Positions 20,507-64,000 of a DNA stretch of 64,000 bases are shown piece after piece. A program made the translations under genes and the position numbers. The notes under the pieces are model-generated. The model did not search any database. It was not told the origin of the DNA and saw only the letters and a list, made by a program, of their open reading frames with translations. Source of the stretch: Neoarius graeffei (lineage: Eukaryota; Chordata; Actinopteri; Siluriformes; Ariidae); NCBI RefSeq assembly GCF_027579695.1, contig NC_083571.1, forward strand, positions 38,390,943 through 38,454,942, read 5' to 3'. Numbering within the stretch: position 1 is the stretch's first letter; the number at the start of each line of letters is the position of its first letter.

Positions 20507-20694
20507 AGCAATAAAAGCATACACAAGGGCTGGCTGTTAATTTTACAGCAAAAATATGACTGAGTGTCTTTCTGTTTTACTGAACATGACTGTAAATAAT
20601 CCACAGTCTGTAAAATATACAGACAGGGAATTCATGTGATAAACTGTGCTTAATGAACCTTTTATTGAGTCAGACAGTAAAACACGGAACCTTA

Positions 20695-21959
20695 TGGCCC
20701 TTTTCCACTACCCTTTTTCAGCTCACTTCAGTTCGCTTCAGCTCACTTCAGCCCGACACGGCTCGCATTTCGACTACCAAAAACCAGCACGACTCAGCTC
20801 GTTTCAGCCCTGCTTAGCCCCTAAAACTCGCACCGTTTTGGAGTGGGGCTGAAGCGAGCCAAGCCGTGCCGAGTGAGGCTGGAGGCGTGAGCAGACACTC
20901 CCCTGTGCACTGATTGGTGAGGAGGAGTGTCCTCACATGCCCACACACGCCCCGCGAGCGCGCTGGGATCTGTAAACACCGCAAACCCGGAAGAAGAATA
21001 ATTATGAATTACGAGAATTTCTGAAGCCTTATGCGCCTCGCCTCATCTATACGCTCTTGCCAGTATCTGTTGGCGTTGTCGGTGACAACAAGCCACAGCA
21101 CCAAGACCAGCAACACTAACGACTCCATGTCCTCCATGTTTATTGTTTACTATTCGGGTCGTGAGACTACCACTTAAAAGCTCACTGAATCAGTGACATA
21201 CAGAGCATCGTGGGAGTTCGCGGAGCGCAAGGCTTGTCGTATGCCCTTCAAATAATGCGCGCAGTAGGCTATTGATGTTTTATTATGAGCCATGTACAGT
21301 ATGTCGCCTAATGTTTTTTTGTTTCTGAGTTACATGTTCGTTTGAAGGACTTAATGTACAAAATAACATAGTTGCACCCCGGAGTGTTGAAATTGGTAAA
21401 CACAGTGCATTCAGTGAGGTTTGCACCGCCCTCCTTTTATTTCTGACTCTTCCTGTCACCGTTGCAACCTCTGAGCGCTCATTCGTATGCCATTCAAATA
21501 ATGTGCGCAGTATAGGCTATTGATGTTTTATTATGAGCCATGTACAGTATCCTAATGTTTTTTGTTTCTGAGTTACATGTTCGTTTGAAGGACTTGATGT
21601 ACTAAATAACATAGTTGCACCCGGTAGTGCTGAAATTGATAAACACCGCAGTTGCGGACATTTTGTAGCCTAAAATGATGTTATGATAAGCTTTAATAAA
21701 GGGCCTGGTCATTTGCCCCGCCCCCGGCCCGGCTCTGACTTGTTCCGCCACTGTCACTGATGTCACTGTTTGCGCTGCTTAACGACATCACGTGACGTCC
21801 ACCCACTTTCGCTAACTCCACCCAATGTGTCCACCCACTTCCAGCCAGCACGGTTCAGCGCGGTTGTAGTCGAAATGCAACTTCAATAGCCCCGCTCAGC
21901 TCGACTCAGCTCGACTCGGCACGGCACGGCTCAGCCGCGTTTGTAGTGGAAAAGCGGCA
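20695..21959. mobile_element. PIF/Harbinger-like non-autonomous element
   Basis: Ends TGGCCCTTTTCCACTAC and GTAGTGGAAAAGCGGCA are inverted repeats with two mismatches, flanked by TTA (20692-20694 and 21960-21962), the usual Harbinger target length. The paralogous block at 63355 lacks the whole 1.27 kb, which confirms both ends. Subterminal arrays of CTCRCTTCAGC-type motifs occur at both ends. No transposase is encoded. An internal direct duplication covers 21239-21403 and 21484-21650. Confidence 0.8.
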
Positions 21960-22175
21960 TTAGACAGACTCAAACCCTCAACCTCACTGAACCTCCCTGG
22001 TGCTTTATTTACTTTGGCATGCACATGACATAGCATGTGATCCTCACAACTTCCACTGCAGCAGCAGGAGGAGGAACCAGAAGTGTTTCTCATGGATGTG
22101 GAAAAAAAGGGGAAAAGACGAAATCTGTGGAACTGGAAAAGCAGGCCGGAAAATATGTGAACGATATGGGATCAA

Positions 22176-23782
22176 CAGTGGTGCTTGAAAGTTTGTGAAC
22201 CCTTTAGAATTTTCTCTATTTCTGCATAAACATAACCTAAAATCTCATCAGATTTTCACACAAGTCCTAAAAGTAGACAAAGAGAACCCGGTTAAATAAA
22301 TGAGATAAAAATATTATACTTGGTTATTTATTTATTGAGGAAAATAATCCAATATTACATATCTGTGAGTGGCAAAAGTGTGTGAATATTTGCTTTCAGT
22401 ATCTGGTATGATCCCCTTGTGCAGCAATAACTGCAACTGAACATTTCCAGTAACTGTTGATCAGTCCTGTACACTGGCTTGGAGGAATTTTAGCCCATTC
22501 CTCCATACAGAATAGCTTCAACTCTGGGATGTTGGTGGGTTTCCTCATATGAACTGCTCACTTCAGGTCCTTCCACAACATTTTGTTTGGATTAAGGTCA
22601 GGACTTTGACTTGGCCATTCCAAAACATTAACTTTATTATTCTTTAATGATTCTTTGGTAGAACAACTTCTGTGCTTAGGGTCGTTGTCTTGCTGCATGA
22701 CCCACCTTCTCTTGAGATTCAGTTCATGGACAGATGTCCTGACATTTTCTTTTAGAATCTGCTGGTATAATTCAGAATTCATTGTTCCATCAATGATGGC
22801 AAGCTGTCCTGGCCCAGATGCAGCAAAACAGGCCCAAACCATGATACTACCACCACCATGTTTCACAGATGGGATAAGGTTCTTATGCTGGAATGCAGTG
22901 ATTTCCTTTCTCCAAACATAATGCTTCTCATTTAAACCAAAAAGTTCTAATTTGGTCTCATCCATCCACAAAATATTTTTCAATAGCCTTCTGGCTTGTC
23001 CATGTGATCTTTAGCAAACTGCAGACGAGCAACAATGTTCTTTTTGGAGAGCAGTGGCTTTCTCCTTGCAACCCTGTCATGCACACCACTGTTGTTTAGT
23101 GTTGTCCTGATGGTGGACTTATGAACATTAACATTAGCCAATGTGAGAGAGGCCTTCAGTTGCTTAGAAGTTACCCTGGGGTCCTTTGTGACCTCACCGA
23201 CTATTACATGCCTTGCTCTTGGAGTGATCTTTGTTGGTCGACCACTCCTGGGGAGGGTAAAAATGGTCTTGAATTTCCTCCATTTGTACACAATCTGTCT
23301 GACTGTGGATTGGTGGAGTCCAAACTCTTTAGAGATGGTTTTGTAATCTTTTCCAGCCTGATGAGTATCAGCAAGCCTTTTTCTGAGGTCCTCAGAAATC
23401 TCCTTTCTTCGTGCCATGACACACCCACAAACATGTCTTGTGAAGATCAGGCTTTGATAGATCCCTGTTCTTTCAATAAAACAGGATGTCCACTCACACC
23501 TGATTGTCATCCCATTGATTGAAAACACCTGACTCTAATTTCACCTTCAAATTAACTGCTAATCCTAGAGGTTCACATACTTTTGCCACTCACATATATG
23601 TAATATTGGAATATTTTCCTCAATAAATAAATGACCAAGGATAATATTTTTGTCTCATTTGTTTAACTGGGTTCTCTTTATCTACTTTTAGGACTTGTGT
23701 GAAAATCTGATGATGTTTTAGGTCATATTTATGCAGAAATATAGAAAATTCTAAGGGGTTCACAAACTTTCAAGCACCACTG
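22176..23782 (-). mobile_element. Tc1-like transposon inserted in the duplicated exon
   Basis: Ends CAGTGGTGCTTGAAAGTTTG and CAAACTTTCAAGCACCACTG form inverted repeats of roughly 200 bp. A second repeat (GTGAGTGGCAAAAGT/ GTTCACATACTTTTGCCACT) lies about 190 bases in, giving the IR/DR layout of Sleeping Beauty-like Tc1 elements. The right side is flanked by TA; the left dinucleotide is now AA. The empty site in the paralogue reads GGGATCTAAAAGCC. Confidence 0.9.
22558..23417 (-). pseudogene. Tc1 transposase, split and catalytically dead
   Basis: The N-terminal part (23417 to 22980) starts MARRKEISEDLRKRLADTHQ with a paired-like helix-turn-helix (YKTISKEFGLHQSTVRQIVY) and an AT-hook-like SGRPTK. 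The C-terminal part (22983 to 22558) begins at MKNILWMDETKLELFG with the first catalytic Asp and has HGGGSIMVWACF and QQDNDPKH (second Asp). The two parts are in different frames. The third catalytic position reads SPDLNPNKMLW where SPDLNPIEMLW is expected, so the Glu is lost. The end of the protein is cut short. Confidence 0.88.
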
Positions 23783-24299
23783 TAAAAGCCAATGTGGAGC
23801 TGTTCTTCTAGCATTAATCGCGGTGATTTTCACCGTTTCCGTTTCATCTCTCTGGTCATAGCTGGATTGTAAGTAAACACCGTGCACGTGCGCTTCCCAA
23901 ATCCATAACATCAACACACACGGCTGTGTAAAATACTCTAAATTTACACACAGAGTGATATAAATAGAGAGGGAGGGCTTTATCACTGTGTGGCAGTGGG
24001 CTGTGTGGCTGAGCGTCAGTCTGTGAATGGAGGGCGTCGTCAGGGAAGGTGAGTGGTCATATCGTTACACCTGTTGTCAATTAACGTGTGTTTGTGTCTC
24101 CTCCAGTGACCATGCCCTGTAAAAGAGAGTGAGAAGGGGAGGTTGGCGCCGAGGGCTTGATCTTAGCCTGTGTGTGTGTGAGAGAGGGTTTGAGTTGTGT
24201 GCTGAAAAGGAACAACAAAGATAATTAAGACGCAAGCAACCGCCTGCCATGCTTCTGTCCTCCACCCATATCAGGGTCTCTCTACAGTGGTGCCGAAAC

Positions 24300-25270
24300 C
24301 CGGGAGAGTGCAGAATGGAACAGCCCCATGGAGTCCTCTCTGTTCAAGGACCTGATCCATGCTCTTGCCACACCCCAGCAGAACCAGCACCAAGTGCTGA
24401 TCGCCCTCTGAAAGGAGCAAGGACAATGGTTTGAAGCCTTGGTGCTGGCCCAACAGGAAGACTGCCAGGTATTCTGGCACCTGCTCACATCAGCAGGGTC
24501 CATGACCGCCACCGGAGTGGACCCTCCCCACCTCACCCTAACAAAAATGGGTCCGCATGATGATCTGGAAGCCTTCCTCGCACTCTTTGAGCAAGGCGTG
24601 GGGTTGGCCGGTTGACCAGCACGCAGCGTGCCTCCTCCCCCTACTGATGGGCGAGGCGCAGCTGGCTGCACTGCAGCTCCACGCCAACAACCAGCTCGTG
24701 TACGCAGACCTCCGACGAGCCATCCTCCAGCGTGTTGGCCGCTCCCCAGAGCAATAGTGGCAGTGCTTCCGCTCACTGTGCTTGGAGGAGGTCGGCAGAC
24801 CTTTCGCGTTCGGGCAACAACTCCGGTACACCTGCTGGCGGTGGCTGAGAGCAGACAATCACAATGCCGAGGGAGTGATCGACCTGGTGACACTGGAACA
24901 ATTCATCGCATGACTTCCGGAAGGAATAGCAGAGTGGGTCCAGTGTCATCACCCAGTGTCGCTGGACCAAGTTATCAAGCTGGCAGAGGACCACAGTGAC
25001 AGTTCCAATGGCAGGAAGGCGTGTCTCCTTTTCTCCTCTCTCTTCTCTCTCTCCCTCTCCCTCTGCTTCCCGTCCTTGCCCCTCCCCCCAGCTGGCCCGG
25101 CACACCTGTGGTGTCCTCCCATTTTCCACTTCCTTGTCTGCTTCTCCTCCCCTCTGGGTGAGTGATGTCCATAACACCGGTGCAGAGGGAGAGCCTGGGC
25201 CAGTGTGCCAGCGCTGCAGGGAGTCGGGACATCTCCAACATCAGTGCTCTGCGATGGAGGTGGGCGTGGT
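24300..25270 (+). pseudogene. gag region of Gypsy fossil A
   Basis: This part carries a gag-like region with a zinc knuckle of the C-X2-C-X4-H-X4-C kind near its end (VCQRCRESGHLQHQC). It is a decayed coding region belonging to the fossil retrotransposon at 23989-29619. Confidence 0.75.
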
Positions 25271-25299
25271 GGACACTCAAACTGGTGAAAAGATATCAC

Positions 25300-25838
25300 A
25301 GTTATTAATTCCAAAGAGCTGCTGGGAACTCATATTCCAGGTGCCTCACTTTAATCCCATGGCCGGACACTTAGGGCAGGATAAAACACTAGCCCGAATA
25401 ATGGTCCAGTTCTATTGGCCAGAGATTCACGGGGATGTCCGTCGATGCTGTGCGGCATGCTGCAAATGCCAATTAGTAAATCTTGTGGCTACTCCAAAAG
25501 CGCCTTTGCGCCCTCTCCCCTTAATCGAGACACCTTTTGAAAGAATTAGGATGGATCTCGTCGGGCCATTAGATCAGTCAGCATGGGGATATCGCTTTAT
25601 TTTAGTTCTGGTGGACTATGCAACGTGATACCCAGAAGCAGTGCCTCTCTGCAATATCTCAGCATGCAGTATTGCAGAAGGGCTCTTCCGCTTTATCTCC
25701 CAGGTCGGGATTCCGAAAGAAATCCTGACAGACCAAGGCACTTCATTCATGTCACGCACACTGCGCGAGCTGTATGGGTTACTGCGGATTAAGCCTATCT
25801 GCACCAGTGTCTATCACCCACAAACTGATGGCTTAGTG
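25300..25838 (+). pseudogene. Integrase region of Gypsy fossil A
   Basis: The region shows an HHCC zinc-binding part (MAGHLGQDKT, CAACCKCQLVN) and the start of the catalytic core (MDLVGPLDQS, FILVLVDYAT, ILTDQGTSF). It precedes the reverse transcriptase, the order seen in Gmr1-type elements. An inserted hAT interrupts it at 25839; further integrase sequence lies at 27281-28000. Confidence 0.85.
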
Positions 25839-26174
25839 CAGGGGTGGCCAACCAGTTGGAGACCAAGAGCCACATTTTTTTACTGTATTACCACAAAGAG
25901 CCACATCATACACATGGGCACACGAACATCACCCATCTCTTCCTCTCTCTCTCACACACACACACACGCACGCACACCTCTGCTCAGCCAGATTAATAGT
26001 AAATGTCACACACCAACATATTTACTCCTACAGTACTAAGACCACAGGCTGAGGCCAGTCATTTTTAACAATGAACGTTGTGTGCACTTACTATGCATGC
26101 TGCTTAGTGGGACTCATGGCATTACCAAAAAAAAGCCACACCATACACATGACCTCACATGAACATCGCCCCCC

Positions 26175-26212
<38 letters not shown>

Positions 26213-27272
26213 GACACACACACTCACGCACCTCTGCTCAGCCAGATTAATAGTAAATGTCACACGCCAACATGAGAGAAATTTACTCCTTCAGTCAGTA
26301 CTAATACCACAGGCCAGTCATTTACAGCAATCAATATTGTGTGCACTTACTATGCATGTTGCTTAGTGGGACTTCTGACATTCCTTGCCTTGAACAATCC
26401 TCTTCAAATCTGCCTTGTATTCCGTCGTTGCCACTCGAAGCAGTTCTTTCACATGGGTTTCAGTCAGAACAGAACGATGCTTTGACTTCACGTGTTTCAT
26501 GGTAGAGAACACAGACTCGCAGACGTATGTTGACCCAAACATTGACAGTATCTTAAGCGCAGCCTGTTTCACATTCGGGTATTTTTCCAATGGCACACTT
26601 TTCCAAAACTCAATGGTGCCTTCCCTCAAAACAGGTTTCAGTTGCTCTTCCTCACGAAGATCGATCATCTCCAACTCAGCCGCAGCCTCATCTGTGACAA
26701 GCGGGGCTTTCAAACAGTCCATCTCCGCATTGAATGGGTCGACGAGGAACGTAATCTGTGGCCTTTTCAGTTGTATATCACGGAACCGGGTTACAAAGCT
26801 TTCGTGCAGGTTTTCAATTAGTGTTGCATATCTGGCTCCTTGCTTATTCAGGGAGGCGGGAAGCTTTGAAATGAGCTAATGACAACTGACATATAAGGCA
26901 GAATGGCTTGCCATTATGTTCAACAAAAAAGTATAAACTCTCCCACTCTGTTAAAAATGTCCTATGTTCGTCTTCATATTTTCGTTTTGCTGTGCATTTT
27001 TTCATTGCCATTTTGAGAGGCTGCTTGACACAAGATACACCTTGCCCAAAAACTTAGCGATTATCTCACGCACATGCGCATTTGACATGGCCTGAAAATA
27101 CCGTAATATACCCAAGCAAAGCGAAGATGCATTTGACGAAAATACCATACTGAACTCAAGCAAAGCGCACACGCACATAAAAAAACCACAAACTTCGATA
27201 TGAATGTAAGAGCCGCATGACACCGGGCAAAGAGCCGCATGCGGCTCGCGAGCCGCGGGTTGGCCACCCAAG
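25839..27272 (-). mobile_element. hAT (Charlie-like) transposon inserted in Gypsy fossil A
   Basis: Ends CAGGGGTGGCCAACCAG and CGCGGGTTGGCCACCCAAG are inverted repeats. A perfect 8-bp duplication GCTTAGTG lies at 25831-25838 and 27273-27280. Further GAGCCRCAT-type motifs sit inside both ends. An internal direct duplication of about 240 bp (25893-26120 and 26137-26372) contains (CT)n and (CA)n tracts. Only the last third of a transposase remains. Confidence 0.9.
26363..26874 (-). pseudogene. hAT-Charlie transposase C-terminal part
   Basis: On the minus strand an open frame of about 170 codons reads LISKLPASLNKQGARYATLI, ENLHESFVTRFRDIQLKRPQ, ITFLVDPFNAEMDCLKAPLV, and then FGSTYVCESVFSTMKHVKSK with HRSVLTETHVKELLRVATTE. 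The FGSTYxCExxFSxMKxxKSKxRSxLT block is the hAT dimerisation domain, close to EPM2AIP1/GTF2IRD2-like hAT proteins. The upstream catalytic portion has been lost, and a stop precedes LISKL. It cannot transpose alone. Confidence 0.85.
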
Positions 27273-27280
27273 GCTTAGTG

Positions 27281-28060
27281 GAACGTTTTAATTGAAATCT
27301 CAAAAATATATTTTGGAAGTTCGTAAGCGAAGATGCACATAATTGGGATAAGTGGCTCGAGCCCCTGTTATTTGCAGTACGAGAGGTCCCGCAAGCCTCC
27401 ACAGGTTTTTCACCGTTTGAATTATTATATGGGCATAAGCCGCATGGCATTTTGGACGTGCTTACATGAAAATTGGGAGGAGGGACCTTCATCTAGGAAG
27501 AATGAAATTCAATATGTTCTCGACCTGTGTGCCAAACTCCATACACTCACGCACTTAACCCAGGAGAATTTGTGGCAGGCGCAAAACCATCAAGTCCGAC
27601 TGTATGACAGGGGCACGCACCTTAGGGAGTTCACACTGGGAGACAAAGTACTCGTATTACTGCCCACATCAAGCTCCAAATTGATCTCCAAGTGGCGAGG
27701 GCCCTTCGAGATCACACGGCGAGTCAGGGACGTCGACTATGAGGTGAGGCAAACGGACAGGGGTGGGGCATTGCAAATTTACCACCTAAATCTATTAAAA
27801 CGTTGGAATGAGGAGGTCCCCGTGGCGTTGGTGTCAGTAATCCCGGAGAAGGCAGAGCTGGGGTCAGAGGTTCAAAAAAGAAAATTGGCATCGCCCACCA
27901 CTCCGGTCCCCTGTGGAGACCACCTCTCCCTGGCCCAACTCACGGAGGTAGCCCAGTTGCAGAAAGAATGTTTTCATGTTTTCACCCCTGCCTGGCCGCA
28001 CCCACCTCATAGAACACCACATTGAGATGCCCCCAGGGGTGGTAGTGTGCAGCTGCCCTT
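27281..28060 (+). pseudogene. Integrase C-terminal region of Gypsy fossil A
   Basis: Contains the integrase tail with LREFTLGDKVLVLLPTSSS, KWRGPFEITRRVRDVDYEVR and LQIYHLNLLKRWNE, a known Gypsy integrase C-terminal pattern (GDKVxxxxP, then KxxGPFxI). Coding is decayed. Confidence 0.8.
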
Positions 28061-28085
28061 ACTGCCTGCCTGAACACAAAAAAAG

Positions 28086-29304
28086 GTGGTCCGGAATGAA
28101 CTTGAAGCCATGCTCGAAATGGGCATAATTGAGGAGTCCCACAGTGACTGGAGCAGCCCAGTCGGTCGATCCGGTTCTGTTTGGACTATAGGAAAGTCAA
28201 CGCGGTGTCTAAATTTGACACGTACCAAAATGCCTCGCATTGACGAGCTGCTCGATCGATTAGGCACTGCTTGTTTTTATTCAACACTGGATTTAATATT
28301 GGCAGATCCCCTTGACTCCTCTGTCCCGAGAGAAAATGGCCTTTTCCACACCGTGTGGCTTACACCAACTTGTCACACTTCCTTTTGGGTTGTTTAGGGT
28401 GCCCACTACATTCCAGAGGCTTATGGACAGGGTCCTCCACCCCCACATCACCTATGCAGTCGTGTATCTCGAAGATATTATCATCTACAGCAATAACTGG
28501 CCACGGCACCTTGAACACCTTAGGGCCGTCCTAAAGTCACTGAGGTGGGCGGGTCTCACAGCTAACCCAAAGAAGTGTACAATTGGGTGGGTGGAAGTGC
28601 GGTACCTGGGTTTCCACTTAGGCCATGGGCAGGTGCGTCCCCAAATTAATAAAACGGCAGCGATTGCAGCCTGCTCGAGACCAAAAACCAAAAAAGGGGT
28701 GAGACAGTTCCTGAGACTGGCTGGCTACTATCATAGGTTCATACCTAATTATTTGGATGTCACCAGCCTGCTGACTGATCTCACTAAAAAGGGAGCACCA
28801 GATCTGGTCCAGTGGATGGAGCAATGCCAACAGGCTTTCTCTAGGGTAAAGGCTGCACTGTGTGGGGGGCCACTGTTACACTCCCCTGACTTTTCTCTCC
28901 CCTATATTTTACAGACAGATGCATTGGACAGAGGGCTGGGGGCCGTTCTGTCCCAGAAGGTAGATGGGGAGGAGTGTCCTGTGCTGTACCTTAGCCGGAA
29001 GCTGTCAATGCAGGAAGGCAGGTACAGTACGATAGAGAAAGAGTGCCTAGCCATCAAGTGGGCGGTCCTCGCCCTCCCGTACTACCTCCTAGGATGCCCT
29101 TTCACCCTCTGTTCGGACCACGCGCCCCTCCAGTGGCTCCACTGCATGAAGGATGCCAACGTGTGGATCACCCGTTGGTATCTTGCCCTCCAGCCATTTA
29201 AATTCAAGGTGGTCCACAGGCCGGGGGCGCAGATGGTGGTGGCGGACTTCCTGTCCCATCAAGGGGGGGGAGTCTGCTGCGGGCCGGACGGCTCCCCAGC
29301 CTGA
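28086..29304 (+). pseudogene. Reverse transcriptase and RNase H region of Gypsy fossil A
   Basis: Reverse transcriptase motifs (HPHITYAVVYLEDIIIYSNN, LGFHLGHGQVRPQINKT) and the connection and RNase H region (LQTDALDRGLGAVLSQ, YSTIEKECLAIKWAV, FTLCSDHAPLQWL) occur in order. They lie downstream of the integrase. The region is decayed. Confidence 0.85.
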
Positions 29305-29734
29305 GTCGGGCGGTGGGGGTATGTGGCAGCAGGGGTGTGGCCGAGCGTCAGTCTGTGAATGGAGGGCAGAGTCAGGGAAGGTGAGTGGTCGTATCGCTAC
29401 ACCTGTTGTCAATTAACGTGTGTTTGTGTGTCTCTTCCAGTGACTGTGCCCTATAAAAGGAGAGTGAGAAGGGGAGGTCAGCACCGAGGGCTTGATAGTA
29501 GCCTGTGTGTGTGAGAGACAGTTTGAGCTGTGTGCTGAAAAGCAACAATAAAGATAATTAACATGCAAACAACTGCCTGCTGTGCTTCTGTGCTCCACCC
29601 ACATCAGGGTCTCTCTACACACTGTTTACACAGGAAGAAAGGAGCAGTTTACAGCACTGAGCTCTGAGCCGCGCTCTTGGGAGCTGTGGCTGTGACATCA
29701 CATGCGATGTTGAAAGTGTATTTCTGCATTCATG

Positions 29735-30780
29735 TCAGTCACATCACATTACATTACATGGCATTAATCAAATGCTCTTATCCAAAGCAACGTACAGTAC
29801 AATGCATGCAAAAGTCAGGTACATGAAGTGCTGAACTTCTAGACAAGAAAGTTCTAGTGCCAACTGAACAAATGACAGCAATCCTGAGTGTAATATTCCC
29901 TTGAAGTACCAATAGTCAAACAGCCAAGGAAACAAACCAACCATATAAAGTATAACTAAATAGAGAACTCAAAACAGCGAACCCCAGGCAAGATGGTACA
30001 CAGCCTGGATTGGTCTAGACCAAAATGCAGTGGGCAGGGAAGAAGGAGAGAAGTGCAGCTTGAAGAAGTGAGTCTTCAGTCTGCGCTTGAAGGTGGTCAG
30101 GGAGTCGGTAGTTCTGACCTCAGTGGGAAGGTCATTCCAGAAATGGGGAACCAGGACAGACAAGAGTCTTGAGGGGGCTGGGCAGGAGGAAAGATGAGCA
30201 GGAGCCAGGTGACCAGTAGTAATGGAGTGTAGGGATCTGGCTGGCGTGTAGGGGTGGAACAGACTCTGGAGGTATGCTGGACCTGACCCTTGACTGCCTG
30301 CTAAGCTAGCGCCAATGTCTTAAATTTGTTATGATCTGCAATAGGTAGTCAGTGCAGTTCAGCAAGCAGAGGGGTGACATGGGAAGAATGAGGGAGGTTG
30401 TTGACCAGGCAAGCTTCAACCTTCTGGATGAACTGCAGGAGTCTGATGGCAGAAGATGAAAGGCCAGCAAGGAGGGAGTTGCAGTAGTCTAAACAGGAGA
30501 GGATCAGTGCTTTGACCAGGAGCTGAGTAGAGTAGGTGGTAAGAAAAGGGCAGATACTTCGGATGTTGTACAGAAGGAATCTACATGTCCATTTCACTGC
30601 AGCGATGTTCACTGAGGAGGAGAGTTTGTCGTCGAACACGACTCCTAGGTTCTTCACATTTGGTGAAGGAGACCTAGAGATGTCCCCCATGGAGAGGACA
30701 ATGTCCAGTGACATTGCCACTTTGAAGAGTTCATTTAAAACATCTCCAGCGATTCTATAACTCACAGTAAAGTTTATGTG
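29735..30780 (-). mobile_element. L2 LINE fragment, 3' half
   Basis: On the minus strand VKNLGVVFDDKLSSSVNIAA, LLYNIRSICPFLTTYSTQLL and LSCLDYCNSLLAGLSSSAIR are the typical region after the L2 reverse transcriptase core. They are followed by VLVPHFWNDLPTEVRTTDSL and FKRRLKTHFFKL, the protein's C-terminus, in another frame. The 3' tail has AAGAGCATTTGATTAATGCC and ATGTAATGTAATGTGATG repeats, as in other fish L2 elements. The element is 5' truncated. Its tail is also present at 63900-64000, so the insertion predates the segmental duplication. Confidence 0.85.
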
Positions 30781-30926
30781 TGTAATGTATCTCCGATGCA
30801 TTGTAAGTTCCTCATGAGACTGAATCTAGTGACATTTCCACAGCAATGTCCCTGATTTCAGGGAATACAGTGTGGCTTTAAAAACTCAATTTCCCATAAT
30901 GCACAGGAGCATTTCACACTGAATAA

Positions 30927-31707: not shown

Positions 31708-32033
31708 TCCCGCTGACGCTCATCACGCTCATCACTGATGAATATAATCCATCAGTGAATTACTCGCAGTTGTCACAGTGACGAATGCATTTGTCATCTT
31801 TATCATGTCATCTTTTCTAGAAATCCCTCCACACATCCCTCCATTTGCCGAAATCCAACTGCAGTGAAAAGACGGCGAAACCAGAGTGTAAACTATAAGC
31901 ATGTGCTTGTGACCAATAAAAATTGTCTACACATAATGACTATGGCAGCGGGGGCATGGCCAAGCAGCAGTCTGTGAATGGAGGGCGGGGTCGGGGAAGG
32001 TAAGTGGCTAAGTCATTTCACCTGCTGTCAATT

Positions 32034-32088
<55 letters not shown>

Positions 32089-33190: not shown

Positions 33191-33194
33191 AGTG

Positions 33195-36660: not shown

Positions 36661-36668
36661 GTTTACAC

Positions 36669-51399: not shown

Positions 51400-51442
<43 letters not shown>

Positions 51443-51443
<1 letters not shown>

Positions 51444-53042
51444 ACCCCGATTCCAAAAAAGTTGGGACAAAATACAAATTGTAAATAAAAACAGAATGCA
51501 ATGATGTGGAAGTTTCAAAATTCCATATTTTATTCAGAATAGAACATAGATGACATATCAAATGTTTAAACTGAGAAAATGTATCATTTAAAGAGAAAAT
51601 TTAGGTGATTTTAAGTTTCATGACAACAACACATCTCAAAAAAGTTGGGACAAGGCCATGTTTACCACTGTGAGACATCCCCTTTTCTCTTTACAACAGT
51701 CTGTAAACGTCTGGGGACTGAGGAGACAAGTTGCTCAAGTTTAGGGATAGGAATGTTAACCCATTCTTGTCTAATGTAGGATTCTAGTTGCTCAACTGTC
51801 TTAGGTCTTTTTTGTCGTATCTTCCATTTTATGATGCGCCAAATGTTTTCTATGGGTGAAAGATCTGGACTGCAGGCTGGCCAGTTCAATACCTGGACCC
51901 TTCTTCTATGCAGCCATGATGCTGTAATTGATGCAGTATGTGGTTTGGCATTGTCATGTTGGAAAATGCAAGGTCTTCCCTGAAAGAGACGTCGTCTGGA
52001 TGGGAGCATATGTTGCTCTAGAACCTGGATATACCTTTCAGCATTGATGGTGTATTTCCAGATGTGTAAGCTGCCCATGCCACACGCACTAATGCAACCG
52101 CATACCATCAGAGATGTAGGCTTCTGAACTGAGTGCTGATAACAACTTGGGTCGTCCTTCTCCTCTTTAGTCCAAATGACACGGCGTCCCTGATTTCCAT
52201 AAAGAACTTCAAATTTTGATTTGTCTGACCACAGAACAGTTTTCCACTTTTCTACAGTCCATTTTAAATGAGCCTTGGCCCAGAGAAGACGTGTGCGCTT
52301 CTGGATCATGTTTAGATACGGCTTCTTCTTTGAACTATAGAGTTTTAGCTGGCAACGGCGGATGGCACGGTGAATTGTGTTCACAGATAATGTTCTCTGG
52401 AAATATTCCTGAGACCATTTTGTGATTTCCAATACAGAAGCATGCCTGTATGTGATGCAGTGCCGTCTAAGGGCCCGAAGATCACGGGTGCCCAGTATGG
52501 TTTTCCGGCCTTGACCCTTACGCACAGAGATTCTTCCAGATTCTCTGAATCTTTTGATGATATTATGCACTGTAGATGATATGTTCAAACTCTTTGTAAT
52601 TTTACACTGTTGAACTCCTTTCTGATATTGCTCCACTATTTGTCGGGGCAGAATTAGGGGGATTGGTGATCCTCTTCCCATCTTTACTTCTGAGAGCCGC
52701 TGCCACTCCAAGATGCTCTTTTTATACCCAGTTATGTTAATGACCTATTGCCAATTGACCTAATGAGTTGCAGTTTGGTCCTCCAGCTGTCCCTTTTTCG
52801 TACCTTTAACTTTTCCAGCCTCTTATTGCCCGTGTCCCAACTTTTTTGAGATGTGTTGCTGTCATGAAATTTCAAATGAGCCAATATTTGGCATGAAATT
52901 TCAAAATGTCTCACTTTCGACATTTGATATGTTGTCCATGTTCTATTGTGAATACAATATCAGTTTTTGAGATTTGTAAATTATTGCATTCCGTTTTTAT
53001 TTACAATTTGTACTTTGTCCCAACTTTTTTGGAATCAGGGTT
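51443..53042 (-). mobile_element. Tc1-like transposon with intact-looking transposase
   Basis: Ends AACCCCGATTCCAAAAAAGT and ACTTTTTTGGAATCAGGGTT are inverted repeats that extend for about 200 bp. A second copy of the core (CTCAAAAAAGTTGGGACA) occurs about 185 bases inside each end (51635-51653 and about 52838-52856), an IR/DR arrangement like Sleeping Beauty. TA borders the right end; the left end meets a (AC)n/(AT)n tract. The two inverted repeats have diverged clearly from each other. Confidence 0.9.
51662..52711 (-). CDS. Tc1 transposase, 349 codons, catalytic triad intact
   Basis: Cuts and pastes its own element at TA sites. The N-terminal helix-turn-helix (residues about 20-60, ILPRQIVEQYQKGVQQCKIT, then SLNISSTVHNIIKRF) is followed by a basic linker (KGQGRKT, 65-71) and a second helix-turn-helix (75-125). 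Catalytic residues: Asp163 (LWSDKSKF), Asp253 (FQHDNAKPH), Glu288 (SPDLSPIENIW), spaced 34 residues apart, the DD34E pattern of Tc1. The length agrees with full-length Tc1 transposases (about 340-350). A downstream start MGRGSPI (residue 11) is the more usual one. No stop or frame break is visible, but activity is unproven and GGGSIMVWG is changed to TSLMVCGCI. Confidence 0.9.
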   Translation of the reverse strand: MEWQRLSEVKMGRGSPIPLILPRQIVEQYQKGVQQCKITKSLNISSTVHNIIKRFRESGRISVRKGQGRKTILGTRDLRALRRHCITYRHASVLEITKWSQEYFQRTLSVNTIHRAIRRCQLKLYSSKKKPYLNMIQKRTRLLWAKAHLKWTVEKWKTVLWSDKSKFEVLYGNQGRRVIWTKEEKDDPSCYQHSVQKPTSLMVCGCISACGMGSLHIWKYTINAERYIQVLEQHMLPSRRRLFQGRPCIFQHDNAKPHTASITASWLHRRRVQVLNWPACSPDLSPIENIWRIIKWKIRQKRPKTVEQLESYIRQEWVNIPIPKLEQLVSSVPRRLQTVVKRKGDVSQW

Positions 53043-55651: not shown

Positions 55652-55735
55652 GTTACCTGTTTTGTACAGGAAAAGTACAGACAAGAGTCGTCAGTTGTGT
55701 TCATTCAGCAGGCAGTCCTCTGTCTTTAATAACAG
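55652..55735 (-). repeat. 75-bp repeat, copy 1 (L1 5' region?)
   Basis: The block TTTGTACAGGAAAAGTACAG, AGAGTCGTCAGTTGTGTTC, AGCAGGCAGTCCTCTGTCT reappears at 57052-57125. It lies just 5' of L1 ORF1 and on the minus strand ends in CAG followed by GTAACT, like a donor site. It may be L1 5' untranslated sequence. Confidence 0.7.
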
Positions 55736-55973
55736 GCTTTTACATTTCTTTTCACAATATTAAACATAATATCCACCAATACACAACTTCACAAATTAAC
55801 AGACATATTACTGTTAGCATAACATACATCTGGTACCTCTACATCTCTGTATATCATTACCAGTACCGACTAAACTACAAATCACTGTAAACAGACAATG
55901 TGCACTCAAACACATATTTTCCCCATGCTGCTTCAACCAGCATCAAAAGATATCCCACCAGTGATACAACACT

Positions 55974-56635
55974 CAGTGCGTTTACATGCACATCCAAATC
56001 AAACTACTGTCGGTAATCGAGCTAAGGGTCCCAGCAGGGGTGCCAGAGAAATCCAATCCTACATGCACACAAGGAAATCGAGCTATTGTGTGAGGTACAT
56101 TGTGCACCCGAGCCACAGGTGGCGCTACACGCCCCATCGTGTTGGTACACTTCCGGTTGTCGTCATGAAGAAGAGCTATTCAAGAGTATAAACAAAGTTA
56201 TCAGTTCCGTGTTCACAAGAAGAATGAGCTGATGAGCATGAAGCTGAATGAGCATGAACTCTGTCTCCTCATTGCTCCAGAAGTGCACGCTTCTGCTCGC
56301 CAATTTCTCTTCCTCCTGACCTCTTCTGCTGCTCGCTACTACTGCTGTTGTCATGCCGACCGAGGCTGTTGTGTTTCCGCTTGTGGTCTCGTCACTCGTC
56401 ACTTCCGGAAGGGGCAGTGCTGAAGTAAGTAGCTCGACTACGTAGCTCGATAGGATTTACATGCACTAAGTAGCTCGGCTACAATCACATAATCTAGGTC
56501 GCGTAGCTCGATTACGAGAAATCCAGTTCGGTTAGATTTCAGCCGAGCTAAGGTGTTGACATGGCATTTAGAACTTCGATTTCGGTCGAGCTACGGCAGA
56601 AATTTGATTTTCTCTATGTGCATGTAAACGCACTG
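55974..56635. mobile_element. Non-autonomous DNA element (TIR CAGTGCGTTTACATGCACAT)
   Basis: Ends CAGTGCGTTTACATGCACAT and ATGTGCATGTAAACGCACTG are inverted repeats of about 20 bp with one mismatch. Inside are many GTAGCTCGA / TCGAGCTA motifs in both orientations near the right end. No transposase frame and no convincing target duplication. The CAG start is hAT-like. Confidence 0.7.
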
Positions 56636-57480
56636 ACAGCTTGCTTGACATAGCTTTCCTATTCTACTGTATGCCTGAACACTTTTACACAATTTTTACA
56701 CAATGATGCAGACTTCCCAGTAACAAACGTCAGTCTTTTAACCATACAAATATATAAGATTGAACATTTTTACCTTATCAACACAGTACAATGAATTAAC
56801 GAGTTTAGTCTAAATCAAATTAATAAAATGAAATAGAAATGCTCAGGAGCTCTATACAGCCAAATGAAAACATCGACAGTACGGCCGCCATTTTGTTTAA
56901 TTGTTTCCCACGGTAAAGAAAACTCTGTTTTATGCTGTGTCCCTTAAAGTTCCCAACACCCCATTTTCTATCTTAAACTTTACTCAAACAACATCACAAA
57001 GGCTTTATAAGTCCTTCAGGATACATTGTGATAAATTAACACACATTACTAGCCTGCTTTGTACAGGAAAAGCACAGACAAGAGTCGTCAGTTGTGTTCG
57101 TTCAGCAGGCAGTCCTCTGTCTGAGGAACGTACGCCTGGCGCAGCTTACTACAACTAGCGCTCACTTTTGGTGATACTCCCTCTTGTGGTAGAGTTGGGG
57201 AAACGCACCTTACTAAAACCCATATAGAAAACACATTTAAATCTGGCCTTTTTCATAGAAAAATACACAATAATTCAAACAACTCAACAATTGTGACCAT
57301 ACATTTGTGGGTGTCACAATTACAGGCATCAAAAAATCATATCTCTGACGAACGGTGTACTTAATTATCACACCGGCTTTCTGTAGCAAAGATTATCAAA
57401 AAAGTGCAGCTTTTATTTTTGAAAAAATGCAACAGTTGAGCAGGAGCTCTGCAACACGTCTTACTCCACTGCTTGCTCAC
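56636..57480. other. No gene; holds second 75-bp repeat
   Basis: 57052-57125 repeats the block at 55652-55735. The rest (for example CTACCACAAGAGGGAGTATC on the minus strand) is unrecognised and may be another L1 5' region. Confidence 0.45.
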
Positions 57481-57548
57481 TAGCACACACACACACCACG
57501 TGACTTTTCTTAGCAGTTTTACCAGAAGTGAAATAGCTGGTGGTCTAA

Positions 57549-58110
57549 ATGGCTGTCGTAGTGCAAACAACTAGTGATAACTTATCAGAGTATGCTTGTA
57601 ATCTAGAAGCCACTGCTCGCTTTAGATATATTCAGAAGGTTGCTATGTGCAATGGAATCGACCCCTCCAGTCTGGGAAAGAAGGATTTGTCATACGATCT
57701 TGAAAACTACTCTTTAGTCAAGTTCCCCGACATCTCAAACTACCTGGTGTTGCAGACGTCCTTCTACACCGCAAAACAGATGAAAGCGTGGAAGAGTATG
57801 GAGGGTTACAACTTTTTTGTATGTGGCTGGGTAAAGGACCTCGGGATCAAGTCGCTGCTGAATGAATCCTGTATTGTTTTTGCCCGTGTAAGTATGTTTT
57901 TTTTTTAAGCTTTTCATACACGTCTTTACAACGAAGCGCTACAAATTGAAGTGTAAACAAACAACAGTTCACTTGATTCTCAATTGTGTTCACTCTTATC
58001 TCTCAGGTAAATCATTCACAAAGATCACCAGAAACCCCTTTAAAGACCTGGATTTTAGTTAAACAAGACGGAGAAGTGATCACGGCGCATTGTAACTGTA
58101 TGGCTGGGTA
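57549..58110 (+). pseudogene. ISL2EU YqaJ/SWIM protein N-terminal part
   Basis: MAVVVQTTSDNLSEYACNLE, YIQKVAMCNGIDPSSLGKKD, YLVLQTSFYTAKQMKAWKSM and FVCGWVKDLGIKSLLNESCI are in one frame to 57908, followed by a splice-donor-like GTAAGT (57889). In another frame lie [20 protein letters not shown] and [12 protein letters not shown] with a GTAAG donor after it. A two-exon reading with SWIM-like CxC is likely. This form lacks the downstream nuclease, so it is non-functional. Confidence 0.72.
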
Positions 58111-58371
58111 AGAATTTTGTCGCGACCTTCATGCATATGGACTTTGTGAGGAGTAAACAAAGAAACGGCTGAGGACTTTAGCGCTTCGTGAATTAAAAAA
58201 AAGTACCATAAAATAACGGCACATAGCAAGAAAAGTACTTGGAAAACACGAAGGACATAGCTGAGAGGGAAATACAAACCTTTCACCAAGTGATCACTGC
58301 AAACTCGAGCATGCTTCGACTCGGCTCCCTTCGATTTCAGTGAGAGGTTCAAAAGCCACGTTTCTCTTAGA

Positions 58372-59447
58372 CTTACTTTATTGTCATTCAGATTTGCATT
58401 AAACAATACACATCAGAACGAGAGGGCGGCACGGTGGTGTAGTGGTTAGCGCTGTCGCCTCACAGCAAGAAGGTCCTGGGTTCGAGCCCCGGGGCCGGCG
58501 AGGGCCTTTCTGTGTGGAGTTTGCATGTTCTCCCCGTGTCCGCGTGGGTTTCCTCCGGGTGCTCCGGTTTCCCCCACAGTCCAAAGACATGCAGGTTAGG
58601 TTAACTGGTGACTCTAAATTGACCGTAGGTGTGAATGTGAGTGTGAATGGTTGTCTGTGTCTATATGTCAGCCCTGTGATGACCTGGCGACTTGTCCAGG
58701 GTGTACCCCGCCTTTCGCCCGTAGTCAGCTGGGATAGGCTCCAGCTTGCCTGCGACCCTGTAGAAGGATAAAGCGGCTAGAGATAATGAGATGAGACATC
58801 AGAACGAGATTTTGTTGCTTTGGCTCAGTGTAGTGCAGAACGAAACAGCAAGTATATTACCTGAGAAAATATATATAAGAAAACTGTGTATAAAGTCCTA
58901 TATACAATATAAAGTGTATTGCCTGAATATAAAGTATATTGCCTAGGTGGTGGTGGTGGGGGGGATTAATTCGGTTCAACAGCCTTATGGCCTGTGGTAA
59001 AAAAACTGTTGTAGAACCTGGCTGTTCTACTCCAGAGGCTGCATCGCCTCTTTCCAGAAACCAGCAGCGAGAACAGTCCATAGTGGGGGTGGGAGGTGTC
59101 TCTGCTGATGTTGCGAGCCCTGGCCAGGCAGCGTTTTTCTGCAATATCCTGTATCGGAGGAAGTAAAGTCCTGATGATTTTCTCCGCTGTCTTCACCACC
59201 CTCTGCAGGGACTTCCAGTCAGAGGCCCTGCAGGCTCCTGACCAGACAGAGATGCAGCAAGTCAGTATGCTTTCTATAGTGCCTCTGTAGAAAGTGGTGA
59301 GAATTGGAGGGGGGAGATGTGCCTTCTTCATCCGGCGCAGAAAGTGCATGCACTTCTGAGCCCTCTTTACAAGGGCCCTGGTGTGATGGGACCAGGTCAG
59401 AGTGTCCGTTATCTGCACCCCCAGGAACTTTGTGCTGCTGATGTCTT
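58372..59447 (-). mobile_element. Rex1-type LINE fragment, 3' part
   Basis: The minus-strand frame 59418-58966 reads TDTLTWSHHTRALVKRAQKC, MHFLRRMKKAHLPPPILTTF, YRGTIESILTCCISVWSGAC, then LQRVVKTAEKIIRTLLPPIQ and RARNISRDTSHPHYGLFSLL. This is the C-terminal part of Rex1/CR1-like ORF2. The 3' end is GACAATAAAGTAAG-like (58378 side). The SINE at 58424-58796 lies within its 3' untranslated region. The element is 5' truncated. Confidence 0.82.
58424..58796 (+). mobile_element. SINE inserted in Rex1
   Basis: Full length, close to consensus, with a target duplication CATCAGAACGAGA on both sides (about 58411-58423 and 58797-58809). Confidence 0.95.
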
Positions 59448-59760
59448 GACGTCTTTTTGTGAAATCCTGTGTTCGTTCACCCTTTTTATGAGTTCACGGG
59501 GAACCCTGAAGAAACTTTCACCAGTTTCACTGTTTGGGCGATTCGAACAACCTAAAACAACGCAAGCGTAAGGCATTTTTCATGCCAGCAATGCACCCTC
59601 TCTGTACAAACGGTTTGTCAACTGAGCTTTGGTAGACCACCAGCTAAAGTTTTGAATAACTAATGAGGCGGATGTGATGTCATGTTAAACCCAGCAATAA
59701 AAGCATACACAAGGGTTGGCTGTTAATTTTACAGCAAAAATATGACTCAGTAATAAATAA

Positions 59761-59957
59761 ATAATAAATAATCCACAGTCTTTTAATCCACAGTTGACTT
59801 GCTGACTTTGGGACTGTGGTTGTCGTGAACGGTTTTGCGCTCGGGTTTTCCGTCGGTGGGGGGTTTATAGCATCAACGAAGCTGACTTTATGTTAGAACT
59901 GTTAAGGTTATAGTCATGTTGTCTGTTGTTGCCCAAATGAGGATGGGTTCCCTTTTG
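59761..59957. other. No recognised gene
   Basis: Short unique stretch (GTTTTGCGCTCGGGTTTTCC) between the duplicated block's left piece and the next SINE. Confidence 0.45.
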
Positions 59958-60320
59958 GCGGCATGGTGGTGTAGTGCTTAGCACGGTCGCCTAACAGCAA
60001 GAAGGTTCCGGGTTCGAACCCAGTGGCTGGCAAGGGCCTTTCTGTGTGGAGTTTGCATGTTCTCCCCATGTCTGTGTGGGTTTCCTCCGGGTGCTCTGGT
60101 TTCCCCCACAATCCAAAGACATGCAGTTAGGGCCGTGGGGTGGCCTTAGGCTGAAGTGCCCTTGAGCAAGGTACCTAACCCCTGACTACTCCCTGGATGC
60201 TGTAGTATGGCTGCCCACTGCTCTGGGTGTGTGTGTTCACTGCTTCAGATGGGTTAAATGCAGAGGATGAATTTCACTGTGCTTGAAGTGTGCATATGAC
60301 AAATAAAGGTTTCTTCTTCT
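59958..60320 (+). mobile_element. Chimeric SINE: same head, third kind of tail
   Basis: The head (GGCGGCATGGTGGTGTAGTG to AAAGACATGCAG) is shared with the main family. After that it reads GGCTGAAGTGCCCTTGAGCA, AAATGCAGAGGATGAATTTC and ends TGACAAATAAAGGTTTCTTC. This is a third tail type besides ATGAGATGAG and the RTE-like tail. Confidence 0.85.
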
Positions 60321-60920
60321 TCTTTGAGTCTGGTTCCTCTCGAGGTTTCTTCCTCATGTCATCTGAGGGAGTTTTTCCTTGCCACCGTCGCCACAGGCTT
60401 GCTCATTGGGGATAGATTAGGGATAAAATCAGGTCATATTTTAAGTCGTTCAAATTCTGTAAAGCTGCTTTGCGACAATGTTCATTGTTAAAAGCTTCTT
60501 CTCCTTCTTTTGGCTGCTCCCGATTAGGGGTCGCCACAGCGGATCTTTCGTCTCCATTGCTCCCTGTCTTCCGCATCCTTCTCTACCACACCTGCCACTT
60601 TCACGTCCTCTCTCACCACATCCATCTATCTCCTCTTTGGCCTTCCTCGTTTTCATTTGCCTGGCAGCTCCATCCTCAACATTCTCCTTCCAACATGCTC
60701 TGCATCTCTTCTCAGGATGTGTCCATACCATCTCAGTCTCATCTCTCTTAGCTTAATTCCCAAGCTCTCCACATGTGCTGTCCCTCTGATGTGCTCGTTC
60801 CTTATCCTGTCCAACTTCCCATCGCAAATCTTAACATCCTCAACTCCGCCACCTCCAACTTTGCCTCCTGTCTCTTCGTTAAGGGTACAGTCTCCAATCC
60901 ATACATCACAGCTGGTCTCA

Positions 60921-61770
60921 CTACTGTCTTATACTGTACATCTTACCTTTCACTTTTGCTGGGACTTTCCGATCGCAAATGACTCCCGAGATCTTTCTCC
61001 AACTGCTCCACCCTGCCCGCACTCTCTTTCTCACCTCACTATCGCAGCCCCCATTTTCCTGCACAGTTGACCCCAGGTACTTGAATTCACCAACTTTCTT
61101 TATGTCGCCTCCTTGCATCTTCACTACACTCTCATCCCCATTCTCATTGATGCACATGTATTCTGTTTTGCTCCTCTTCGTTCCAATGCATCCCTCCATC
61201 TCTCCAAACCCAACTCAGCCTCCTTTCTACTTTCACCGCATATCACAATATCATCCGCAAACATCATGTTCCATGGTGACTCTTGCCTCACTTCGTCCAT
61301 CAAGCTATCCATCACTATGGCAAACAAGAAAGGACTCAAAGCAGATCCTTGATGGAGTCCCACCTTCACCTTGAACCATTCAGTTGCTCCAGCTGCACAC
61401 CTCACTGCTGTTTCACTGTTCTCATACATGTCTTGCACCACTCTAATATACTTCTCATTCACTCCACTCTTTCTCATACAATACCATAACTCATCTCTCG
61501 GCACTCTATCATATGCCTTCTCCAAGTCTACAAACACACAATGTAGCTTTCTCTGGCCTTCCCTGTACTTCTCCATTAACGTTCTTGAAACAAAAATTGC
61601 ATCCGACATGCTCTTCCTTGGCATAAACCCGTACTGCTGTTCACAGATTGCTACCTCTCTTCTCAATCTCACCTCCAATACCCTTTCCCATAGCTTCATG
61701 GTGTAGCTCATCAATTTTATTCCTCTGTAATTACTGCAGCTCTGTACATCTCTCTTATTCTTGTATATAG
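60921..61770 (-). pseudogene. RTE reverse transcriptase, core and C-terminal parts
   Basis: Motifs in order: CSNYRGIKLMSYTMKLWERV, EQQYGFMPRKSMSDAIFVSR, LHCVFVDLEKAYDRVPRDEL (first catalytic Asp), VGLHQGSALSPFLFAIVMDS, and MMFADDIVICGESRKEAELG (FADD catalytic pair). The stretch continues in another frame with KRSKTEYMCINENGDESVVK, KVGEFKYLGSTVQENGGCDS and GVICDRKVPAKVKGKMYSIR. At least two frame changes after FADD make it non-functional. Confidence 0.9.
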
Positions 61771-61771
61771 A

Positions 61772-63176
61772 GATCTTGCAGTCACGTGACCGGAAAGTAC
61801 ACAACCGCCATCTTGTCGGTCAAAAACACCGCTGAATACTGCTGCACTCGTGTACAGAATGGATCAATTTCAACCGACGGACTACACGGCTCATTTTTCT
61901 AATGAACAGATAACTAGATATATGTCTAAAATAAACGATCTACAGATTTGTGACCCTTATGGCTTACCGGACGGAGTTTTCACGACCGGATTTTGAACTG
62001 CCCGCGGAATACCCAGACGTGTATAATTACCTCATTAACTTTCCCTCGCTGTTCAGTGGTGAAGCACTGCGTGCTTATAAATCTGTGGACAGTTATCTTT
62101 ACAGAAATTCAGGATTTGTCAGCGACTCAGATGTGGCATCTTGTAAACAAGAATCCTCATTGGATGGGTAAGTCACTTAAGTATTGAGTATAGCACTGAC
62201 CAGCCGATTATAGAATAGAATAAGGTAATTCCAAATCGTCCGTCTTGTTTACATGGATCTGGCGTTGGAGAGGTAGAGGCTTGGCAGTGGAGATTTGAGT
62301 GGCTGTTTTCTGAGCTTAGTCAACAGGCCGGCTCTGCAGCCTCGCTTTTGCTTCAGCTCCCGGCGCCGCCTCCTTCGCTTTGCTTCCGATAACAATCCAC
62401 GGAGACCCCGCTGGTCTCGCTATCTCGTCCGGAATGTGTTTTTTTTTTTTTCTCGTCCGGAATGTTGTGCATGCGATGGAAATCGCTACAAACCGTCATT
62501 TTCTGCTGGAAACCAATGTCCAGTAAGTCCATACGGTTGTAGTGGATATTGAAGTCCGGTACAGACGAACAACACGCAAAAATACACACAAAAAACATAA
62601 AAAACGTGCACAGGTAGGGAGAGCTTGTAGCCGCAGCCGTTGTAGTAGAATTGTATATAGTAGGGTTTTCCAGGGGCGGCACGGTGGTGTAGTGGTTAGC
62701 GCTGTCGCCTCACAGCAAGAAGGTTCTGGGTTCGAGCCCAGCAGCCGGCAAGGGCCTTTCTGTGCGGAGTTTGCATGTTCTCCCCGTGTCTGCGTGGGTT
62801 TCCTCCGGGTGCTCCGGTTTCCCCCACAGTCCAAAGACATGCAGGTTAGGTTAACTGGTGACTCTAAATTGACCGTAGGTGTGAATGTGACTGTGAATGG
62901 TTGTCTGTGTCTATGTGTCAGCCCTGTGATGACCTGGCGACTTGTCCAGGGTGTACCCCGCCTTTCGCCCGTAGTCAGCTGGGATAGGCTCCAGCTTGCC
63001 TGCGACCCTGTAGAAGGATAAAGCGGCTTGAGATAATGAGATGAGATGAGGGTTTTCCAGAAGAAAAGGTAGAAGTAAAAGCAGAAGTAGAAGTAGGAAT
63101 ATGGCGTTTGACCGACACGATGGCGTCTGTCACAATCTGGATCGGCTGTGACGTCACATGCAAGTGCTCCATTGGG
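61772..63176 (+). mobile_element. ISL2EU-type transposon inserted in the RTE, holding a SINE
   Basis: Left end AGAGATCTTGCAGTCACGTG and right end CACATGCAAGTGCTCC show inverted similarity (GAGnnCTTGCAnGT). AT borders both ends and is single in the uninterrupted RTE frame, fitting a two-base target. Coding starts at 61859 with MDQFQPTDYTAHFSNEQITR, YMSKINDLQICDPYGLPDGV; after one frame slip PDFELPAEYPDVYNYLINFP and GEALRAYKSVDSYLYRNSGF follow, ending at a GTAAGT donor (62168). This is the same protein family as at 19589 and 57549 but another subfamily. Confidence 0.78.
62674..63050 (+). mobile_element. SINE inserted in the ISL2EU
   Basis: Full length with target duplication GGGTTTTCCAG on both sides (about 62663-62673 and 63050-63060). 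The innermost and youngest layer of this nest. Confidence 0.95.
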
Positions 63177-63295
63177 ACTAGCACACACTTCCTCCATTCA
63201 TTTGGCATTTTCTCATTCTCTAGGATCTTATTAAACACTACGGCAAACAAGAAAATGCTTATTGTTAAAAGCGCTCTACAAATAAACTTGACTTT

Positions 63296-64000
63296 TATTG
63301 TAAAATAAACTGTGGTTAATGAACCTTAGTTTTATTGAGTCTGACAGTAAAACACTGAACCCTAGACAGAGCCGAACCCTCAACCTCACTGAACCTCCCT
63401 GGTGCTTTATTTACTTTGGCACGCGCATGACGTAGGGCGTGATCCTCGCGACTTCCACTGCAGCAGCAGCAGGAGGAGGAACCGGAAGTGTGTATCGTGG
63501 ATGGGGAAAAAAGGGAAAAAGAAGAAATCTGTGGAACTGGAAAAGCAGGCCGGAGAATCTGTGAACGATATGGGATCTAAAAGCCAGTATGGAGCTGTCC
63601 TTCTAGCATTAATCGCGGTGATTTTCGCCGTTTCCGGTTCCGCTCTCCGGTCACAGCTGGACTGTAAGTAAACACCGTGCACGCGCGTTTCCTAAATCCA
63701 TAACAATGCGACACACACGGCTGTGCAAAAATACTTTAAAATTTACACACAGAGTGATATAAATACAGAGGGAGGGATTAATCACTGGTTACACAGGAAG
63801 AAAGGAGCAGTTTACAGCTCTGAGCCGCGCGCTTGGGAACTGGGGCTGTGACGTCACATGCGATGCCGGAAGTGTATTTCTGTATTCATGCCAGTCACAT
63901 GACATTGCATTGCATTGAGCAGATGCTTTTATGTTCTTAGACAAGGAAGTTCTAGTGCCAACTGAACAAGTGACAGAAACCTTGAGTGTAATATTCTCTT
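63296..64000 (+). repeat. Segmental duplication, copy 2 (uninterrupted, runs off the window)
   Basis: Aligns with 20640-29905 minus three insertions. Empty sites are CCCTAGACAG (for the Harbinger-like element, about 63362), GGGATCTAAAAGCC (Tc1, about 63575) and AATCACTGGTTACAC (Gypsy fossil A, about 63784). The L2 tail is shared. This copy keeps the coding exon intact. Confidence 0.82.
63501..63663 (+). CDS. First coding exon of an unidentified small membrane protein
   Basis: ATG at 63501 opens 54 codons: MGKKGKKKKSVELEKQAGES, VNDMGSKSQYGAVLLALIAV, then IFAVSGSALRSQLD, with the donor ACT/GTAAGT at 63663-63664 in phase 1. The N-terminus is lysine-rich and cytosolic in character. Residues 31-48 are a hydrophobic helix without charges, which suggests a type II signal anchor in the ER membrane. 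The upstream CpG- and GC-rich context (GCGCATGACGTAGGGCGTGA, CRE-like TGACGT) fits a housekeeping promoter. Later exons lie outside the window. I do not recognise the product. The paralogue at 22092-23875 is broken. Confidence 0.55.

Follow-up and report, generated by a model that had tools for sequence, protein, structure and literature searches.

Duplications whose copies carry differential insertions are common. Segmental duplications are delimited by homology of more than 1 kb at more than 90% identity (PMC3878106, in excerpt). In the excerpted text of PMC4482050, paralogous empty site analysis of PHIS elements uses an element-free relative to reveal the target of an insertion and its duplication. 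We describe a pair of copies of this kind in a 64,000-nucleotide stretch of the Neoarius graeffei genome (the window; contig NC_083571.1). With direct segmental duplications on the same chromosome that carry private insertions, the pair shares collinear blocks, differential insertions and empty sites; it departs from the usual case in that each copy has received several insertions within ~2 kb of ancestral sequence, which is no difference in kind, so the locus records a real and ordinary kind of genome history. Compared with the PHIS empty sites (as presented in the same excerpt of PMC4482050), the empty sites here belong to a gene-like segment that has been duplicated, and the record runs both ways; each copy preserves the pre-insertion state of the other, so that the targets of the insertions are exactly readable.

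We compared 20.0–30.4 kb with 57.0–64.0 kb by BLASTN and the window with itself. Copy 1 (19.5–29.9 kb) and copy 2 (57.5–64.0 kb) are joined by eight collinear plus-strand blocks (E 1e-12 to 1e-145, 83–92% identity, 72 to 514 bits): 19537–19854 with 57497–57814, 19842–20261 with 57935–58366, 20263–20565 with 59449–59751, 20639–20694 with 63305–63364, 21961–22173 with 63363–63577, 23783–23988 with 63578–63787, 29620–29781 with 63783–63932, and 29840–29902 with 63938–64000. The best chance HSP among 100 shuffles of 57.0–64.0 kb scores 31.9 bits, and none of the 100 reaches 60 bits; when the shuffles are repeated under a length check (each keeps at least 6976 of 7001 bases), the best HSP scores 35.6 bits and again none reaches 60. 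The ordered landmarks that a sequence-only reading of the window had found in both copies are therefore borne out by blocks that lie far above the shuffles. The alignment covers ~1.69 kb, of which ~0.74 kb lies outside an old transposon-like fossil, that is, the homology exceeds 1 kb and includes non-repeat sequence; the identity, with an overall K of 0.107, is at or just under the 90% limit.

The homology is longer than the sequence-only reading had it. The small piece that it noticed near 59.7 kb forms the rightmost part of an additional 1.0 kb of homology that begins at 19537/57497, and copy 1, which it started at 20.5 kb, is homologous from there on and also for ~1 kb further left. This left limit coincides with the end of the older fossil. 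The flanks beyond it (17600–19536 and 55700–57496) have no mutual match at E 0.001; the first includes pieces of a SINE and of a LINE-like tail that recur elsewhere in the window, and the second includes a single arm of a 70-bp repeat. Immediately upstream of copy 1, at 17430–17570, is the terminal exon of an intelectin gene (46/46 residues aligned with embryonic epidermal lectin of Xenopus, E 1.5e-21). Together with the SINE and LINE types, this lectin would point to a teleost, perhaps a catfish. On the right, copy 2 reaches the end of the window (64000), so that the boundary of the duplication is not visible on this side. The starts of the two copies are now ~38 kb apart in direct orientation. 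When the whole window is searched under relaxed settings, each shared block finds its own partner, and three stretches of 16–22 bp are matched besides (one of these is collinear and one is a direct repeat at 19147), so that the window holds two copies; the ~740 aligned bp to the right of the older fossil likewise match only their own partner, apart from the three short stretches.

The left end of the shared segment is an older DNA-transposon-like fossil with a remnant ORF (19527–20507, plus strand, homologous to copy 2 from 19537), with imperfect inverted ends, read by eye, of GGGTTTCA..TGAAACCC. The ORF is open in copy 2, where it has a possible splice donor. In copy 2, the homologous fossil and its right flank occupy 57497–59751 (plus strand) and are split by a private LINE-like piece; ~133 bp at ~57803–57947 are absent from copy 1, and the 13-base overlap of two BLAST blocks in copy 1 suggests that they may have been lost there by a deletion between short similar stretches. 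We suspected the ORF to be the SWIM/YqaJ-type second protein of an ISL2EU element; no YqaJ domain match is found, an absence that counts for little in a fragment, and the flanks are not AT/AT. The likeness to the ISL2EU group of Harbinger-like transposons (PMC9179366 and PMC4482050, both in excerpt) lies in the inverted ends; the fossil differs in that its ORF matches no Pfam or NCBIfam model and in that it is flanked by AT at its left end and by AG at its right end, and for these reasons we leave it unclassified. In copy 1, a direct repeat, AAAAGCATACACAA (19149–19162 and 20513–20526), flanks a SINE together with the older fossil; only the right one of the pair has a counterpart near copy 2 (59699), and the repeat may be a former target-site duplication that the boundary of the duplicated segment has split.

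Three insertions are private to copy 1, and copy 2 shows the empty site of each, with a fitting target-site duplication, as the sequence-only reading had proposed. The uninterrupted segment of copy 2 (63305–64000, plus strand) contains all three sites and an open exon frame; its counterparts in copy 1 are the left flank of the first element (20508–20694, from BLASTN and junction reading; 20566–20638 aligns poorly with copy 2), the promoter region with the left part of a broken, frameshifted exon (21960–22175, plus strand), the right part of this exon, with a TAG, and intron (23783–23988, plus strand), and intron with a shared repeat tail (29620–29902). The first element (20695–21959) is flanked by TTA on each side, and CTA occurs once in copy 2 (63362–63364); its ends are TGGCCCTTTTCCACTAC and TGCCGCTTTTCCACTAC, of which 15 of the first 17 bases match by eye in inverted orientation. 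PIF/Harbinger transposons make 3-bp target duplications (PMC9179366, in excerpt), given as TWA in the excerpt of PMC4482050, and the element has both this duplication and inverted ends. It does not fully contain any stop-to-stop frame of 90 residues, and so neither a DDE transposase ORF nor a second ORF is found; lacking a long ORF, it is at most a non-autonomous relative, and we call it Harbinger-like.

The second insertion is a Tc1 element with a broken transposase (22176–23782, minus strand). TA is the target of Tc1 elements; here AA (a mutated TA) is found on the left and TA on the right, and TA occurs once in copy 2 (63578–63579). The element has the inverted ends CAGTGGTGCTTGAA and, in two broken ORFs, Pfam matches to HTH_Tnp_Tc3_2 and DDE_3, that is, the TA target, inverted ends and HTH plus DDE transposase by which Tc1/mariner elements are known. 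A Tc1-like transposase frame elsewhere in the window (51662–52744; 360 residues, no stop, Pfam match) is far better kept.

The third insertion is an LTR retrotransposon fossil, fossil A (23989–29619, plus strand), with LTRs at 23989–24286 and 29322–29619 and the termini TG..CA. LTR elements make target duplications of 4–6 bp; CACTG stands on each side of fossil A and once in copy 2 (63783–63787). Pfam matches to RT_RNaseH and RVT_1 are found, together with an integrase (rve) match of 27.9 bits, below the cut-off of 32.6; fossil A has these features of Gypsy elements and is probably of the Gypsy type, a label that comes from the sequence-only reading. Nested in it is a hAT sequence that the same reading did not mention (~25839–27272, minus strand), with a hAT dimerisation domain and the 8-bp target-site duplication GCTTAGTG on both sides; it is probably one element. 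Self-comparison of the window finds two further relatives of fossil A, at 46411–51443 (opposite strand) and at 31943–37848; the latter is broken around 34.8–36.6 kb, and an ORF at this break gives a BED-finger match below threshold.

Copy 2 has been interrupted as well, at 58367–59448 and at ~59787–63299, and both inserts are absent from copy 1. The one-sided account of the sequence-only reading thus holds for copy 1 and misses the private inserts of copy 2; the insertion record is reciprocal, and each copy keeps the unfilled state of the other. The first insert is a LINE-like fragment of 1.08 kb (58367–59448, minus strand) with a SINE inside it (58424–58796), and copy 1 is continuous at 20261/20263; its ORF matches the Pfam model ALKBH8_N (E 6e-17), presumably as a piece of LINE proteins. 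The second is a composite of ~3.5 kb that consists of a SINE piece, a reverse-strand LINE with a reverse transcriptase match (RVT_1, E 2e-31), a piece that resembles the older fossil (62004–62162; 30% identity over 53 residues, E 8e-7 with the window as search space) and a second SINE (62674–63046). It falls near 20611 of copy 1; no clean target-site duplication was found around it, and its edges are approximate. SINE-like repeats of ~375 bp occur across 7190–63050 as twelve nearly full copies, 88–98% identical pairwise, and at least four partial ones (self-comparison).

At the right, unique sequence passes into the same repeat tail at ~29745 in copy 1 and ~63901 in copy 2. Because the junction is identical in both copies, the repeat predates the duplication, in agreement with the sequence-only reading, from which we also take its putative assignment to L2. 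The ORFs of the repeat body extend to ~30825, and two of them have no Pfam match; the ORF at 30349–30825 aligns weakly with the private LINE-like ORF of copy 2 at 58966–59493 (25% over 117 columns, E 0.009). The LINE-like fragment at 58367–59448 is different from this shared tail and is private to copy 2.

The uninterrupted segment of copy 2 contains a putative first coding exon (63501–63663, plus strand) of 54 codons plus 1 base, with an ATG at 63501, a GTAAGT donor at 63664 and one hydrophobic helix (GAVLLALIAVIFAVSGSAL, mean hydropathy 2.43); CpG observed/expected is 1.16 over 63480–63700. The best that protein searches give is a Pfam match to RAMP4 (14.2 bits, below the cut-off of 24), the only one in that library, and three PDB matches (E 0.061 or worse); NCBIfam gives none. 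Pattern searches of viral contigs, a long shot in collections that are not of fish, returned 0 stretches for the exon and 4, of which 0 were confirmed, for relatives of the older fossil's ORF. The claim that the exon of copy 2 is intact therefore stands for the open frame and its donor, and no homologue was found in these searches; from the frame, the donor and the CpG content we infer that it belongs to a working gene. In copy 1, the exon has a one-base length change (frameshift) just after the start and a CAG to TAG change near the end, in addition to the interruption by Tc1. The sequence-only reading saw a clear loss of one paralogue by transposons; with a frameshift and a nonsense codon beside Tc1, any of which may have come first, destruction by transposons is one possibility.

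The two copies also differ in their CpG content. Copy 1 has 10 private CpGs and copy 2 has 43 (binomial p 5.6e-6), and 37 of the 43 read CA or TG in copy 1; the test compares the two copies only with each other, and changes at neighbouring sites may not be independent. Split by region, the numbers of CpGs found only in copy 1, only in copy 2 and in both are 8, 26 and 7 for the fossil blocks and 2, 17 and 13 for the others. The non-CpG differences lean the same way but more weakly (37 vs 54, p 0.09), and the bias differs between the two classes (Fisher p 0.003). The asymmetry offers a lead, in that it would fit either a methylated copy 1 or a copy 2 that is hypomethylated around its live promoter; because it is also present inside the fossil (8 vs 26), it is not purely a promoter effect. 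We tentatively suggest, as an idea that we consider rather unlikely, that copy 1 was methylated because of its mobile elements, over at least its promoter, exon and upstream fossil, and that its CpG loss is a germline scar; if true, the pair would record the transposon-driven epigenetic death of one paralogue, with its sister copy as an internal control.

The collinearity, empty sites, target-site duplications, lesions and CpG asymmetry are very probably explained by a direct duplication of the segment, at or after which each copy received different insertions while copy 1 decayed. The ancestral segment would have run from the old DNA-transposon-like fossil through promoter and first exon into the repeat tail. 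After its duplication in direct orientation, or at that event, copy 1 would have gained the Harbinger-like, Tc1 and Gypsy-type elements, the last of which was later entered by hAT, and copy 2 the LINE-like fragment and the 3.5-kb composite. Copy 1 would then have decayed as a gene fragment by frameshift, nonsense mutation, Tc1 insertion, CpG loss and small deletions, in an order that could have been any, possibly with methylation; copy 2 would have retained the open exon and the CpG-rich start region and may be an active gene. The pair can serve as an internal control for whether transposon load or point mutation comes first in the decay of a duplicate. Several observations sit less easily with this explanation: the end of the fossil coincides with the left edge of the homology, and more than half of the aligned sites (950 of ~1694) lie in the fossil; the composite has no clean target-site duplication; and the CpG asymmetry extends into the fossil, with non-CpG differences leaning the same way.

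The divergences bear on the order of events. Between the copies, K2P is 0.107 (1694 aligned sites; 0.077 without CpG sites, n=1548), and between the LTRs of fossil A it is 0.115 (295 sites; 0.094 without CpG sites, n=273). Poorly alignable or indel stretches were excluded (19843–19854, 20566–20638 and 29786–29839 in copy 1; 57803–57947, 59752–63304 and 63933–63937 in copy 2), as were gap columns. Of 5000 bootstraps, 38% give the copies a larger divergence than the LTRs (20% once CpG sites are removed); when the fossil is excluded, the share is 36% (31% once CpG sites are removed). The inverted ends of Tc1 differ by K 0.080, a loose bound because such ends need not start identical. A clearly later LTR element should have the smaller K; since it does not, the LTR clock cannot confirm the order, which then follows from empty-site logic. 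The claim that the duplication is older than all three insertions is accordingly supported by the empty sites and gains no help from the clock; it would hold provided that none of the insertions was still polymorphic at the time of the duplication. Such polymorphism is the substance of an alternative, unequal exchange between an empty haplotype and one that already had one or more of the insertions; the insertions, the LTR element especially, would then be no younger than the duplication. In its favour, the two K values are indistinguishable, and their point estimates are opposite to what the simple order would give. Against it, the 95% interval of their difference (−0.054 to 0.035) also permits a clearly younger LTR element, and LTRs may accumulate mutations more rapidly than an exon region under partial constraint. 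We regard unequal exchange as a minority possibility.

A direct duplication with later insertions is also preferred to two further explanations. The shared block might belong to a dispersed repeat family in which members have picked up a promoter-exon-like piece, given that ~970 bp of it consist of the transposon-like fossil, with its inverted ends and remnant ORF, and that a related piece occurs in the copy 2 composite; we think this improbable because the ~740 bp to the right of the fossil, which hold the open exon with its splice donor, match only their partner in the window, the three stretches of 16–22 bp aside. Ordinary allelic divergence is far below a K of ~0.107, and this value over 1694 sites, with private insertions in both copies, makes it most improbable that one locus was assembled twice, as haplotigs or by misassembly; judged from the sequence, an assembly artefact is unlikely. 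In addition to the empty sites already proposed, the analysis thus contributes the reciprocity of the insertions, the longer shared segment, the nested hAT, a clock that leaves the order undecided and the CpG asymmetry.

Two further features of the window lie outside the copies. The 70-bp direct repeat of which one arm was mentioned above (55656–55725 and 57053–57122, self-comparison) surrounds an element at 55977–56640; read by eye, its ends, CAGTGCGTTTACATGCACAT, are inverted relative to each other. At 12131–14214 and 15761–15907 lie arrays whose units are 11 bp long (TCTAACATTCA-like) or a multiple of that length.
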